Assembly: GCA_947494435.1 (NCBI GenBank)
Contig: CANLUY010000001.1
Coordinates: 1,416,001-1,480,000 of the forward strand
Source of the DNA: an uncultured Litoreibacter sp.
GTDB taxonomy: Bacteria > Pseudomonadota > Alphaproteobacteria > Rhodobacterales > Rhodobacteraceae
Length of the DNA: 64,000 nucleotides
Direction: 5' to 3'
Below the pieces are notes generated by a model. The model was given only the letters and a program-made list of their open reading frames with translations. It ran no database searches and was not told the DNA's origin. Positions 4,808-64,000 of the stretch are shown here, piece after piece; position 1 is the first letter of the stretch, and each line of letters opens with the position of its first letter. The translations under genes and the position numbers were made by a program.

Positions 4808-6517
4808 TCAGAACATGAAATAGCGCTGTGCCATTGGCAGCACATCAGCAGGTTGGCACGTTAGCAATTCGCCATCTGCGCGGACTTCGTATGTCTCCGG
4901 ATGGACTTCCATCTTCGGCATTGCATCATTCAGGACCATGTCCGCTTTGCTGATTTTGCGGGTATTCTCGACAGCAATCGTATCCTTCGCCAGTCCCAGC
5001 GTGTCTTTCAAATTGCTTGCTTGCGCTGCAGCCGAAACAAAGCTGACAGAGCTTTGTGTCAGAGACCCGCCGAGGCTTCCAAACATCGGCCGCGTATAGA
5101 CCGGCTGCGGTGTCGGGATGGACGCGTTTGGGTCACCCATCTGCGCCACGGCAATGCTGCCTGCCATCAGAACCATTTCTGGTTTCACGCCGAAAAACGC
5201 AGGGTTCCAGAGCACAAGGTCAGCTCGCTTACCGACGGAGATGTCGCCGATCACATGGCTGACACCTTGTGCGATTGCGGGATTGATCGTGTATTTTGCG
5301 ATGTAACGGCGCACACGCAGATTGTCGTTCTCGCCGGTTTCGTCAGGCAGGCGGCCGCGCTGTTTCTTCATCTTATCTGCCGTTTGCCAGGTGCGGATCA
5401 GAACCTCACCGACACGGCCCATGGCTTGGCTGTCTGACGCGATGATCGAGAACGCGCCCATATCGTGCAGGATATCTTCTGCTGCGATCGTCTCACGCCG
5501 AATGCGGCTTTCTGCAAAGGCGATGTCCTCAGGGATGGATTTGTCGAGGTGGTGACAGACCATCAACATGTCCAAATGCTCTTCCAGCGTATTTACCGTG
5601 AAGGGCCGCGTCGGGTTGGTGGAAGACGGCAGGACATTGCGATCGCCGCAGATCTTGATGATATCCGGCGCATGTCCACCGCCAGCCCCTTCGGTATGAA
5701 ACGCGTGGATCGTGCGGCCTTTCATGGCGTTGACGGTATGTTCGACAAAGCCGCTTTCGTTGAGTGTGTCGGTATGGATCATAACCTGCACATCCATGTC
5801 GTCGGCGACAGAGAGGCAGCAATCAATGGCACCCGGCGTGGTGCCCCAGTCTTCATGCAACTTCAGTGCGCAGGCACCTGCATTCACCATCTCGATCAAT
5901 GCGGAGGGTTGGCTGGCATTGCCCTTGCCGGATAGGCCTATGTTCATTGCGATCCCGTCAAAGGATTGCAGCATCCTTCCGATATGCCATGGGCCGGGCG
6001 TGCAGGTTGTGGCCAGTGTGCCATGCGCTGGACCAGTGCCGCCGCCAAAACAGGTGGTGACGCCGGAGTGCAGAGAGTCTTCCATCTGCTGCGGGCAGAT
6101 GAAATGGATGTGGCTGTCCATACCGCCTGCCGTCAGAATGCGGCCCTCGCCAGCGATAACTTCGGTACCGGGTCCGACGATGATGTCGACGCCGGATTGC
6201 GTGTCAGGGTTGCCCGCTTTGCCGATGGCGTGGATCAGCCCATCCTTCAGTGCGACGTCAGCTTTGTAGATGCCTGAGTGGTCAACAATGAGTGCGTTGG
6301 TGATAACAGTGTCCACCGCCCCATTTGCGCGGGTGACTTGGGACTGGCCCATACCGTCGCGGATCACCTTGCCGCCGCCAAATTTTACTTCTTCGCCATA
6401 TGTCGTCAGGTCGCGCTCAACCTCGATAACAAGGTCGGTGTCCGCAAGACGCAGTTTGTCACCGGTGGTTGGTCCAAACATGGCCGCATAATGCGGGCGG
6501 GAGATTTCGGTGGGCAT
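4808..6517 (-). CDS. ureC: urease alpha subunit
   Basis: 569 aa catalytic subunit that hydrolyses urea to ammonia and carbamate in the cytoplasm. All expected active-site residues are visible: His136 and His138 (HIHF), carbamylated Lys219 in ALKLHEDWG, His221, His248 (MIHTDTLNE), His274 ([10 protein letters not shown]), the flap Cys321-His322-His323 (MVCHHLDKS) and Asp362 (SDSQAMGR). Length matches the family. The ATG overlaps the ureB stop by 1 bp (TGATG). The enzyme should be fully active once nickel is loaded by UreDEFG, all encoded here. Confidence 0.98.
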
Positions 6518-61572: not shown

Positions 61573-62271
61573 ATGTCGCAAACAATCACAACAATTGGTT
61601 TCGATGCGGATGACACTCTTTGGCAGAATGAAGAGTTTTTTCGTCTGACGCAGGACCGCTTTTGCGCGCTTTTGGCGGGGTATGCGGATCCTGAAACGCT
61701 TGCTGAAAAACTGCTGCAGGCGGAGCGGCGTAATCTTGGGCGGTACGGGTTCGGGATCAAGGGGTTCGTGTTGTCGATGATTGAGACGGCGATTGAGGTG
61801 ACGGATCAGAAGGTGCCTGCATCTGTTATCGCGGAGATCATTGAGGCGGGTCAGGACATGTTGGTCCATCCGATCCATCTGTTGCCTCATGCTGAGGCGA
61901 CGGTTTCTTCGCTGGCGGGGCGGTTCAGGTTGATCTTGATTACGAAGGGCGACTTGCTGGATCAAGAGCGGAAGCTGGCGCAGTCGGGGCTGGGAGAGAT
62001 GTTTGATGCGGTGGAGATCGTTTCAGAGAAAGTTCCGCAGACTTATATGCGGGCTTTTATGCGGCATGGGGATGGGCCGGAGCGGGCGGTTATGGTGGGC
62101 AATTCCATGAAGTCAGATGTTGTGCCCGCGATTGATGCGGGCGGCTGGGGGGTGCATGTGCCAGCTAAATATGAATGGGAGATCGAGCGGGCGGAGGCGC
62201 CGGTGGATCATCCCAGATTTCGGGTTTTGAGGGACCTGAGCGGGCTTGTCCCGATGTTGGACGAGCTGTGA
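61573..62271 (+). CDS. HAD-superfamily hydrolase
   Basis: 232 aa from the ATG at 61573. The frame is open far upstream (to 61177), but that part lies antisense to clpS. Motif I FDADDTLW gives nucleophile Asp11 and acid Asp13; motif II ILITKGD and motif III/IV MVGNSMKSDVVPAIDAGG close the site. The cap is helical (C1). It is probably a small phosphatase for a sugar phosphate, nucleotide or related compound; the substrate is not predictable. Confidence 0.9.
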   Translation: MSQTITTIGFDADDTLWQNEEFFRLTQDRFCALLAGYADPETLAEKLLQAERRNLGRYGFGIKGFVLSMIETAIEVTDQKVPASVIAEIIEAGQDMLVHPIHLLPHAEATVSSLAGRFRLILITKGDLLDQERKLAQSGLGEMFDAVEIVSEKVPQTYMRAFMRHGDGPERAVMVGNSMKSDVVPAIDAGGWGVHVPAKYEWEIERAEAPVDHPRFRVLRDLSGLVPMLDEL

Positions 62272-62278
62272 TGCTGAA

Positions 62279-62296
62279 TTCCCCGCGTGCGGGGAA
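62279..62296. terminator. short hairpin between the HAD gene and recR
   Basis: TTCCCCG (62279-62285) and CGGGGAA (62290-62296), loop CGTG, then ATTTATAAATAT. It lies 8 bp after the HAD stop and 50 bp after recR on the opposite strand. The T-tract is weak in either direction, so it is a modest, possibly two-way terminator. Confidence 0.5.
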
Positions 62297-62346
62297 ATTT
62301 ATAAATATCTGATTTTAAAAGATAGTCGTGAATTTTAAGGATTTCT

Positions 62347-62955
62347 TTACATGGCTTTGCGGGCTTTGAGGGCGGCTGTGATTGTACCGTCATCAAGATA
62401 GTCCAGCTCGCCACCAATGGGGACGCCTTGGGCAAGCGATGTGACGGTGATGGCGCGTTTTTCCAGCTCGCCTGCGATGTAATGGGCCGTGGTTTGGCCG
62501 TCGATGGTGGCGTTGAGCGCCAGAATGACTTCGGTGATGCCCTCGGAGGAGACACGGTCCATCAGTTTGGGAATGCGCAATTCATCGGGGCCTATGGCGT
62601 CGAGCGCGCTGAGCGTGCCGCCGAGCACATGATAACGGCCTTTGAAGACGGCGGCGCGTTCCATCGCCCAAAGATCGGCGACATCTTCGACGACGCAAAT
62701 CTCGCCATTTGCACGTTTCGGGCTGTCGCAGATATCGCAGGTGTCAGACGTGCCGACATTGCCGCAATTGAGGCACTCACGCGCCGTTGCCGCGACTGTT
62801 TGCAAGACATCCGACAGTGGCGTCATGAGAAGCGCACGTTTCTTGATCATGTGCAACACGGCGCGACGCGCCGAGCGGGGCCCGAGGCCGGGTAGTTTGG
62901 CCATCATCTCGATCAGGGCGTCTATGTCTTTGGTGTTGGACAATGGAGGTGGCAC
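62347..62955 (-). CDS. recR: recombination mediator protein RecR
   Basis: 202 aa from a GTG at 62955; a TTG at 62943 ([10 protein letters not shown]) is an alternative start. It has the helix-hairpin-helix [12 protein letters not shown], the C4 zinc finger ([16 protein letters not shown], about 61-76) and a Toprim domain ([16 protein letters not shown] onward). RecR works with RecO (and RecF) to load RecA on gapped DNA. Composite palindromic element 1 ends 15 bp upstream of the GTG and may affect its translation. Confidence 0.95.
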
Positions 62956-62970
62956 CTAGCTTGGATTGGT

Positions 62971-63038
62971 GTGGGACTCCGCCAAAATGCTGTGCATTTT
63001 CACTCTGTCCCACCGGTCGCATTGCCGGGCAATGCGAC
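62971..63038 (-). repeat. composite palindromic element, copy 1 (ybaB 3' side)
   Basis: On the minus strand, in order: a 10-bp perfect hairpin GTCGCATTGC/GCAATGCGAC with loop CCG (63038-63016); 2 nt; arm GTGGGAC (63013-63007); 6 nt AGAGTG; arm AAAATGC (63000-62994), triloop ACA, arm GCATTTT (62990-62984); 6 nt GGCGGA; arm GTCCCAC (62977-62971). Thus a 7-bp outer stem, a 6x6 internal loop and a 7-bp inner stem follow the first hairpin. It begins on the base next to the ybaB stop and fills the ybaB–recR spacer. A second copy with the same geometry is at 63856-63925. Confidence 0.8.
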
Positions 63039-63383
63039 TCAAAAAGGCAACTTCATACCAGCGGGGAGACCCATGCCTTCGGTGAGTTTGCCCATCTCTT
63101 CTTGCGCTTTCGTTTGCGCCTTCCCTTGGGCGTCTTTGATGGCCGCGAGGATCAGGTCTTCGACCACTTCTTTTTCTTCGGGATGGAAGATGGAGGGGTC
63201 AATATCGAGCGCGGTGATCACACCTTTGGCCGTGGATGTGGCTTTCACCAGTCCTGCACCGCTTTCGCCGGTGACGGTCATATTTTCCAGCTCTTCCTGC
63301 ATTTCGCCCATTTTGGCCTGCATTTCCTGAGCTTTTTTCATCATTCCGGCCATATCGCCGAGACCGCCTAGTCCTTTGAGCAT
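63039..63383 (-). CDS. ybaB: YbaB/EbfC nucleoid-associated protein
   Basis: 114 aa. Met/Lys/Glu-rich helix at the N-terminus (MKKAQEMQAKMGEMQEELENM), then VTGESGAGLVKATSTAKG and the conserved central strands, ending with DAQGKAQTKAQEEMG. YbaB dimers bind DNA and are typically encoded with dnaX and recR, as here. It is followed immediately by composite element 1. Confidence 0.95.
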   Translation of the reverse strand: MLKGLGGLGDMAGMMKKAQEMQAKMGEMQEELENMTVTGESGAGLVKATSTAKGVITALDIDPSIFHPEEKEVVEDLILAAIKDAQGKAQTKAQEEMGKLTEGMGLPAGMKLPF

Positions 63384-63399
63384 GAAGTGTCTCCGTGTG

Positions 63400-63786
63400 T
63401 CAGAGCCGCGTCTCGCGCGGCAGGGTGTATAGGATCATTGCGATACATATTGCAGTGACAGCGCTGATGAACAAGATGGGGGAGCCGATACAGCCCTGAG
63501 AAATCGCGAGAGAGCTTGTCATATGTTCACTCGCGAATGTCACGAAGGTGACGAGACCTGACCAGAGCAAAACCACCGCCAAAGCGCCCCATTGGCTGCG
63601 TTTGAAGATGACAATCGCGCTGGCGGCGAGCAACAACAGCGAGGGCAGCATCGTGAAAAGGTAGATGGCTTCCTGCCACGCAGGTGTGGGGGTGCCGGGG
63701 GTCCAGTTTGGTCTGAGTTTGTGACAGACCTCTGCCAGAGCGGGGCCTGGGATGAGGGTTGCGAGTGTAAGGGTTTTTAGGGAGAT
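63400..63786 (-). CDS. small membrane protein, no canonical start codon visible
   Basis: About 128 aa. The first recognisable stretch, SLKTLTLATLIPGPALA then EVCHKLRPNWTPGTPTPAW, looks like a signal peptide and mature start. Three membrane helices follow (AIYLFTMLPSLLLLAASAIVIF, WGALAVVLLWSGLVTFVTF, SPILFISAVTAICIAMILY). The last Met/Val/Leu start in frame before the signal is absent: the codon in the ATG position is ATC (63786-63784), with GGGAG upstream. I recall similar small proteins near dnaX/ybaB in Rhodobacterales. Either ATC is used, the protein starts far upstream in the hairpin region (ATG at 63927 or 63954), or it is newly inactivated. Confidence 0.55.
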   Translation of the reverse strand: MSLKTLTLATLIPGPALAEVCHKLRPNWTPGTPTPAWQEAIYLFTMLPSLLLLAASAIVIFKRSQWGALAVVLLWSGLVTFVTFASEHMTSSLAISQGCIGSPILFISAVTAICIAMILYTLPRETRL

Positions 63787-63855
63787 CGGGTGACGCTCCC
63801 GCTGAAGCGGGTCGCCCCACCCGCCCTCCCGTATGTGCGCGAGAGGGGCGAATAG
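63787..63855 (-). other. GC-rich spacer with a small hairpin
   Basis: Between composite element 2 and the small membrane protein. It contains the near-perfect palindrome CCCGCT-GA-AGCGGG (63798-63811) and adjacent GGGT/GACCC repeats. It is about 75% G+C by eye and has no T-run. An open frame crosses it, but codons look non-coding, so I treat it as spacer. Confidence 0.5.
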
Positions 63856-63925
63856 GTGCCGGCCCGCCAAAAATCTTTGATTTTTCGCTACACCGCACTT
63901 GGTTGATCCGCTGCGCGGCTCAACC
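63856..63925 (-). repeat. composite palindromic element, copy 2 (dnaX 3' side)
   Basis: Minus strand, in order: hairpin GGTTGA-G-CCGC/GCGG-A-TCAACC (63925-63901), with the dnaX TGA stop inside its first arm; 2 nt; arm GTGCGGT (63898-63892); 6 nt GTAGCG; arm AAAAATC (63885-63879), triloop AAA, arm GATTTTT (63875-63869); 6 nt GGCGGG; arm CCGGCAC (63862-63856). The spacing between each part equals that of copy 1, although the arm sequences differ. The outer stem pairs at 5 of 7 positions. Confidence 0.75.
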
Positions 63926-64000
63926 ATCTTCAAAGGGATCCCACTCATCTTCAACTTCCGGCAGGGCTTCCACAGCGGCTTCCTGCACCAGCTCTTCCGG
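63920..64000 (-). CDS. dnaX: DNA polymerase III subunit gamma/tau, 3' end only
   Basis: The last 26 residues plus TGA (63922-63920) are in the window, frame phase set from base 64000. They are very acidic: PEELVQEAAVEALPEVEDEW then DPFEDG. This is like the C-terminal tail of alphaproteobacterial DnaX. The neighbours ybaB and recR, in the same order and strand as in most bacteria, support it. DnaX is the clamp-loader ATPase subunit. The assignment rests on context plus this tail. Confidence 0.7.
   Translation of the reverse strand, partial: PEELVQEAAVEALPEVEDEWDPFEDG

Follow-up and report, generated by a model that had tools for sequence, protein, structure and literature searches.

A two-hairpin structured repeat at gene 3' ends in Litoreibacter and its relatives, and its possible role in messenger RNA

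The spacers that follow dnaX and ybaB in a 64,000-nucleotide stretch of Litoreibacter DNA (the window) each contain a unit of two hairpins, and comparison with related genomes firmly establishes, at the level of sequence, that such units form a family with characteristic folds. The unit is stereotyped: the end of a gene is followed by a first hairpin (H1), about 1 nt and a second hairpin (H2), a covarying composite structure with a variable outer stem, a conserved internal loop, a variable inner stem and usually a 3-nt loop. The two window copies are members of this low-copy, REP-like family, which is placed in Rhodobacteraceae, a group to which the family is assigned because of its named relatives; the closest named YbaB matches of the window genome (G000, 3.89 Mb) belong to Litoreibacter.

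An earlier note had described two composite palindromic elements of identical geometry 3' of genes. Both are present, on the minus strand, at the ends of ybaB (copy 1) and dnaX (copy 2), and the minus-strand order is dnaX, copy 2, a small ORF, ybaB, copy 1 and recR. Copy 1 spans 62971-63038. Its H1 (63016..63038) is a perfect 11-bp inverted repeat, GTCGCATTGCC/GGCAATGCGAC, lying 0 nt from the ybaB stop codon (TGA, 63039-63041), and is separated by the 2 nt CG from H2 (62971..63013), which reads GTGGGAC-AGAGTG-AAAATGC-ACA-GCATTTT-GGCGGA-GTCCCAC. The outer arms of this H2 occupy 63007-63013 and 62971-62977, the inner arms 62994-63000 and 62984-62990 (loop, 62991-62993), and the strands of the internal loop, of type B, 63001-63006 (AGAGTG) and 62978-62983 (GGCGGA); it scores 55.8 bits against model R1, in which the copy itself is included. 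Protein matches identify ybaB (YbaB/EbfC nucleoid-associated protein, 63039..63383) and recR (62347..62955), which follows copy 1 and is read in the same direction.

Copy 2 spans 63856-63926 on the minus strand. Its H1 (63900..63926), TGGTTGAGCCGC/GCGGATCAACCA, has 12-nt arms that are 92% complementary, and the 5' arm holds the stop codon (63920-63922) of dnaX, a gene identified by a DnaX protein match whose 3' end (63920..64000) is all that the window contains. H2 (63856..63898) has an internal loop of type A (GTGTAGCG / GGCGGG), reads GTGCGGT-GTAGCG-AAAAATC-AAA-GATTTTT-GGCGG-GCC(G)GCAC and scores 71.6 bits against R1, which again includes the copy itself. The spacings of the two copies are nearly identical, not identical as had been noted, because the outer stem of copy 2 is out of strict register: its fold leaves one G of the 3' arm bulged and pairs T with G next to the loop. 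In an exact-geometry scan of the window only copy 1 fits at 7/7 + 7/7, and copy 2 is missing from the list even at 6/6 because of this bulge. The fold z-scores are -6.9 for copy 1 and -4.0 for copy 2.

Two further features lie in the same region. A second hairpin-rich stretch at 63780-63830 (-), CGGGAGGGCGGGTGGGGCGACCCGC..GCGGGAGCG..CACCCG.TCTCCC, located between the dnaX element and the small ORF, is similar in the relatives L034, L035 and L036 and has no Rfam match. The small ORF itself (63400-63798, minus strand, between dnaX and ybaB) has no Pfam match; frames resembling it were seen by eye in some relatives, in the same place or after ybaB.

Two alignments bear out the proposal that the structure is selected and that changes at paired positions go together. 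Among 20 H2 copies, 95.5% of the cells are paired (39–50% in slid controls), double-changed cells number 50 as against 14.9 in shuffles, and covariation reaches 0.493 as against 0.213; further pair types do not exceed the shuffles (271/500). Ten type-C copies show 89.1% pairing in the reported register (35.9% in a register one column away, 35–52% in slid controls) and 19 double changes, compared with 5.9 in shuffles. These comparisons are to be read with the relatedness of the copies left in by the shuffle controls and with copy ends chosen with the structure in mind.

The element is also maintained in relatives. L034, L035 and L036, whose YbaB proteins are 92–93% identical to that of the window genome, keep it with its pairing at both the dnaX and the ybaB sites, and the loss of pairing in these spacers, which the earlier note would have counted against the structure, is not seen in them. 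A decayed element follows dnaX in L037 (YbaB 88%), and in Aestuariivita boseongensis (L104) an element 3' of ybaB is cut by the contig end; L033, with the closest YbaB of all (96%), has no element after ybaB. Covariance-model searches, the check suggested at the outset, found matches in many relatives. With a model built from eight copies, 8 of 21 genus members yielded matches, 17 in total at E up to 0.1. Model R2, built from 20 copies and scoring 32 candidates per genome, matched 38 times, in 28 of 198 genomes, and a few of the weakest matches look like chance; model R3, for type C, gave 65 matches (about half of them inspected) in 33 of 149 genomes with 42 candidates scored in each. Copy numbers are therefore lower bounds, as 32 to 150 candidates were scored of the hundreds to thousands in each genome.

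Four types of internal loop can be distinguished, approximately GGTGTAGCG / GCGGGCC (A), GGGACAGAGYG / GCGGAGTCCC (B), GGCAG / YGAGAGC (C) and AAAGCG / GCGG (D), and one copy after lpd fits none of them well. In G000 three of the types are represented by at least six copies, with A behind dnaX, B behind ybaB and C at four sites, namely rplP, two tuf-like genes (whose C-terminal stretch is one residue off the EF-Tu confirmed in G075) and, antisense, the start of a 2OG-oxygenase-like gene. Simple patterns discriminate unevenly. A first family pattern scan gave matches in 47 of 198 genomes, mostly at non-palindromic sites (one site in G145 looks palindromic), and its controls also matched often; the pattern GGTGTAGCG..GCGGGCC matched 22 of 149 genomes, was element-like only in G000, G013, G061, G095 and G141, and had a reversed control that also matched often. 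The type-B pattern matched G000 and G044 among 149 genomes, and its control none.

Known families do not account for the element. At the gathering threshold, Rfam 15 finds only RF02514 in the window, away from the element (a 5' ureB small RNA match of 126.2 bits at 6076-6364 on the plus strand, an observation in its own right), and nothing at 13 element-bearing loci; at E up to 10, three matches at the window end are far below their thresholds. A 42-nt query of plasmids returned four weak partial records, none from Rhodobacteraceae. No description of the H1–H2 unit was found in the literature searched, which mostly excluded subscription papers, so that an earlier description elsewhere is possible.

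The counts that follow refer to a hand-curated set of 59 copies, which are related by descent. The set leaves out the R2 matches in G065, G061:3166, G049:2234754, G178:C23, G155, G158 and G121, the first tandem copy of G095, L104 (contig end), the decayed dnaX sites of L119 and L131, the degenerate rplP-site candidates L223, L226, L228 and L267, and the type-C R3 matches outside rplP.

The position of the unit at the gene edge is precise. In 48 of the 50 sense copies that were scored, H1 starts between -21 and +10 nt relative to the stop codon (extra hairpins precede it in the two outliers), and in 21 of the 50 it overlaps the stop codon and so includes the end of the gene itself. The scored copies comprise 22 non-rplP and 28 rplP copies (one rplP copy in both groups was counted once) and omit seven reversed copies, L201 and the window dnaX copy, whose gene runs past the end of the window. 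The gap between H1 and H2 is 0–3 nt in 52 of 58 copies, and an H1 of at least 7 bp is absent from only one of the 59. Sense copies directly follow rplP, rpsO, dnaX, ybaB, two ABC permeases, fhs, RNase R, lpd and valS, as well as a gene of the SDR family, one for a 2OG-Fe(II) oxygenase and one for an M20-like peptidase (this last named by eye), and others lie after tuf, groEL, lepA and a UvrD-like helicase; each upstream gene has one or a few loci, rplP excepted.

H1 is often built in part from the host gene. The dnaX end of L034 is TTTGAAGATGGC-TAA-GCCATCTTCAAA, and at this site the coding arm and the H1 3' arm change together between relatives (GAA/TTC in L034 and L035, GAG/CTC in L036). At the ybaB site, L035 and L036 each pair with their own, different gene end, L034 has a tandem copy of its own gene end, paired, and a reversed copy in G211 pairs with the start of cobH. 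Template switching is known to create and mend hairpins (PMC8794818). We infer that H1 was created or renewed here by template switching during replication, through reverse copying of the adjacent gene edge. A tentative extension, which we hold to be doubtful, is that the unit represents a new gene-edge class, in which H2 would recruit the end or start of its host gene into H1 by this route and the loop types would be interchangeable at each site; if so, each copy would be custom-fitted to its host gene.

A second line of evidence concerns the strand on which the unit acts. The H2 hairpins contain 89 G-U pairs on the element strand and 15 on the complement, and the element strand is the more stable in 56 of 59 copies, less stable in one and equal in two. 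A conserved T.G pair beside the loop occurs in 24 of 33 type-A copies, and the bias therefore does not come from that pair alone; H1 is strand-neutral (17 G-U pairs versus 17). The asymmetry shows a preference for one strand of H2 and argues for a single-stranded form, RNA and single-stranded DNA not being told apart by the bias alone. RNA is favoured because of the sense 3' bias of the copies and the arrangement at rplP, where H2 lies upstream of an intrinsic terminator in 27 of the 28 curated copies (the sequence of the remaining one is masked N). Lying between stop codon and terminator, the rplP copies are, judging from their sequence context, very probably transcribed. The rplP sample consists of 120 fetched loci, of which 117 were parsed and 28 entered the curated set; the element is found in 19 of the first 100, nearly in rank order of L16 similarity, and nine of the last 20 were chosen because they had already matched. 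At the window copies, no promoter-like site was found in 62250-64000 and no terminator-like site after either copy, which fits co-transcription; the single terminator-like site of this region, fewer than in shuffles, is weak and lies inside the small ORF.

The function that these observations suggest is that of a REP-like 3' mRNA element whose hairpins would face the ribosome at termination and obstruct 3' exonucleases, and in which template switching would renew H1; this mechanism is offered as a proposal to which we give roughly balanced prospects. The unit would act in mRNA, where H1 would form when the stop codon is free of the ribosome and H2 would be a stable knob with an internal loop that may bind a protein. 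Together they would slow the 3'-to-5' decay of the upstream message and, where the stop codon is inside H1, the pair would meet the terminating ribosome, so that the element could set relative yields within operons such as dnaX–ybaB–recR. During replication, template switching would make and renew H1 by reverse copy of the gene edge. REPs lie near gene 3' ends (Di Nocera et al. 2013, PMC3733652), and PMC12306157 describes them as able to protect mRNA or to make ribosomes stall at stop codons.

Several observations are contrary to this proposal. Antisense copies stand at gene starts (cobH, the G061 flavoenzyme and the 2OG-oxygenase-like gene of G000) and reversed copies lie 3' of nrdJ, and a 3' mRNA role does not fit there. 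The reversed copies at the cobH start occur in three genomes (identified by a profile match in one and by the start peptide in two), the G061 copy is at the start of the gene for an FAD enzyme of the aminoacetone oxidase family, and the reversed copies that lie 3' of nrdJ, at varying distances, come from three genomes, in all of which the gene is recognised by its C-terminal peptide and in one also by a profile match; the nrdJ C-terminal peptide also lies near a type-C copy in G055. The clustering of reversed copies (L145, L197, L204, L148, L193 and L194) and of the type-C copy L417 at the B12-linked genes cobH and nrdJ is possibly due to chance. One of them, L148 (G206:C62), is a reversed type-B copy 3' of nrdJ, situated between two terminator-like hairpins and flanked, by eye, by a 14-bp direct repeat, TGATCAGCGAAACT.

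A second contrary point is evolutionary. Of 20 dnaX loci of the genus, scored by eye, four have an intact element, two a decayed one, one a doubtful one and 13 none; decayed, doubtful or absent in 16 of 20, the element is therefore dispensable. At the ybaB site the loop type differs, being A in three relatives (two of which have a similar flank downstream) and B in the window, and at the rplP site loop types A, C and D are found across genomes. Such loss and replacement are compatible with a dispensable regulatory element as well as with a slowly mobile one. The third point lies in the H2 loops, which have 3 nt in 48 of 59 copies and of which 17 are C[GCA]G, six C[GAA]G and two C[GTA]G, the 3-nt class accounting for only 4 of 70 terminators at the 117 rplP loci (44 have 4-nt loops). 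GNA triloops are specially stable in DNA, and C[GNA]G is a favourite of DNA.

These same observations nourish the main rival, a mobile single-stranded DNA hairpin, in which H2 would be recognised on one strand by a putative recombinase or nuclease, and insertion at gene edges and H1 itself would be by-products of insertion or of replication stalling. It agrees with the copies at many unrelated genes, which share type-specific loops and often outer stems, with the reversed copies, with the loop types that differ at one orthologous site, with the C[GNA]G triloops and with the tandem units of G095 and G145. Most curated copies, however, are in sense orientation 3' of genes, in the curated set H1 lies 5' of H2, neither an empty site nor a target duplication was demonstrated, and a Y1/RAYT transposase, the only class searched, is missing from 23 of 26 and 10 of 13 genomes, both lists including G000. 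We regard this reading as possible and clearly the less probable. Of the options that the earlier note had left side by side, the 3' RNA element and the mobile palindromic repeat are both plausible, the former being favoured.

In G145, tandem type-C arrays contain three units with a 117-bp period and, after groEL, four units with a 93-bp period (L413, L414), and the repeated part of the array after groEL includes a terminator-like hairpin. In G072, type-C-like hairpins (L394, L418, L419, L424) occur within partly tandem repeats; BLAST places them inside larger repeats of about 180–220 bp, they were rejected as dispersed H1–H2 units and, for this reason, are not counted as evidence of mobility.

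An RNA role of another kind, a small RNA derived from the 3' UTR, is improbable. Processing before H1, or between H1 and H2, would free H2 together with a terminator, and at rplP an intrinsic terminator does follow shortly after H2; against this, neither window copy is followed by a terminator-like site, the spacer between H2 and the rplP terminator is short, with no conserved unpaired seed seen by eye, and the loop types differ. That the unit is itself an intrinsic terminator or attenuator, another option of the earlier note, is highly improbable despite the stable hairpins directly 3' of genes: none of the 59 copies has 5 or more T in the 8 nt after H2, so the terminator is rejected, and 27 of the 28 rplP copies have a separate one. 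For the internal loop, kink-turn, sarcin-ricin and ribozyme readings were considered by eye and dropped.

Chance palindromes in GC-rich spacers can practically be dismissed, in spite of a strict sequence-blind scan near shuffle level, because relatives conserve loops and positions across genera and show covariation in two alignments, one of which covers a separate loop type; this already refutes them. That scan, for H1 with H2 over 864 kb, gave four matches (both window copies and two chance-like ones) as against 2, 4, 1 and 1 in four shuffles, and it misses imperfect outer stems and three type-C copies of the family within its own stretch; without H1 it gave 132 matches, compared with 85–101 in shuffles. 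A loose geometry scan gave 215 matches (shuffles, 150–161) and was swamped by G-U pairs, and the pattern AAAA-N9-TTTTGGCGG matched the 3.89-Mb genome twice, at both copies, its reversed control once. Copy counts in G000 alone are without significance.

The family offers useful material. It adds a structured repeat to core genes that are otherwise well understood (dnaX, ybaB, rplP, rpsO, tuf, groEL, lepA and valS), and natural pairs of presence and absence at the same gene in close relatives would allow mRNA decay and translation termination to be measured directly. H1 arms that track the coding end provide a clean setting in which to test whether template switching builds and mends hairpins in bacteria.

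Among known systems, the unit resembles attC sites, which are folded hairpins with short stems and unpaired spacers. The attC motif at the 5' end is the RYYYAAC box (PMC8632094), and attC was rejected since no such box was seen by eye at the 5' end of the curated copies, whose outer stems are, for instance, GTGCGGT, GTGGGAC and GCGGGCG. HRC-8-4 and uORFC-8-2 (Brewer et al. 2021, PMC8632094, compared by their text descriptions) are likewise structured motifs restricted to Rhodobacterales; the former differs in being a terminator-like stem at cco genes, and the latter in its location upstream of cysS.

The GTAG/CGTC REPs of PMC3733652 too are short palindromic units, mainly intergenic, near gene 3' ends and probably transcribed, with stems that contain alternative complementary residues and G-T pairs, and CGTC REPs also lack a dedicated transposase. 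The position near gene 3' ends (48 of 50 scored sense copies) is shared, and the copy number is at least six in G000, as a lower bound. The end-placed, unpaired GTAG/CGTC tag was not found: in most type-A copies GTAG is internal, between the stems, types B, C and D have no GTAG and, by eye, no CGTC tag was seen. Further differences from the REPs of that source are the two unlike hairpins per unit, one of them often formed with the host gene end, the composite H2, the few copies found per genome and the lack of RAYT in most genomes searched; PF01797 turns up in three genomes of each list (26 and 13 genomes) and is absent from G000, which both lists include, and a RAYT-mobilised REP was rejected on this ground. 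A parallel in position is with the E. coli REP sites at stop codons, as summarised in PMC12306157 and compared without sequence, where a hairpin near the termination codon could likewise stall ribosomes and shield mRNA; unlike in those sites, the stop codon here is often inside H1.
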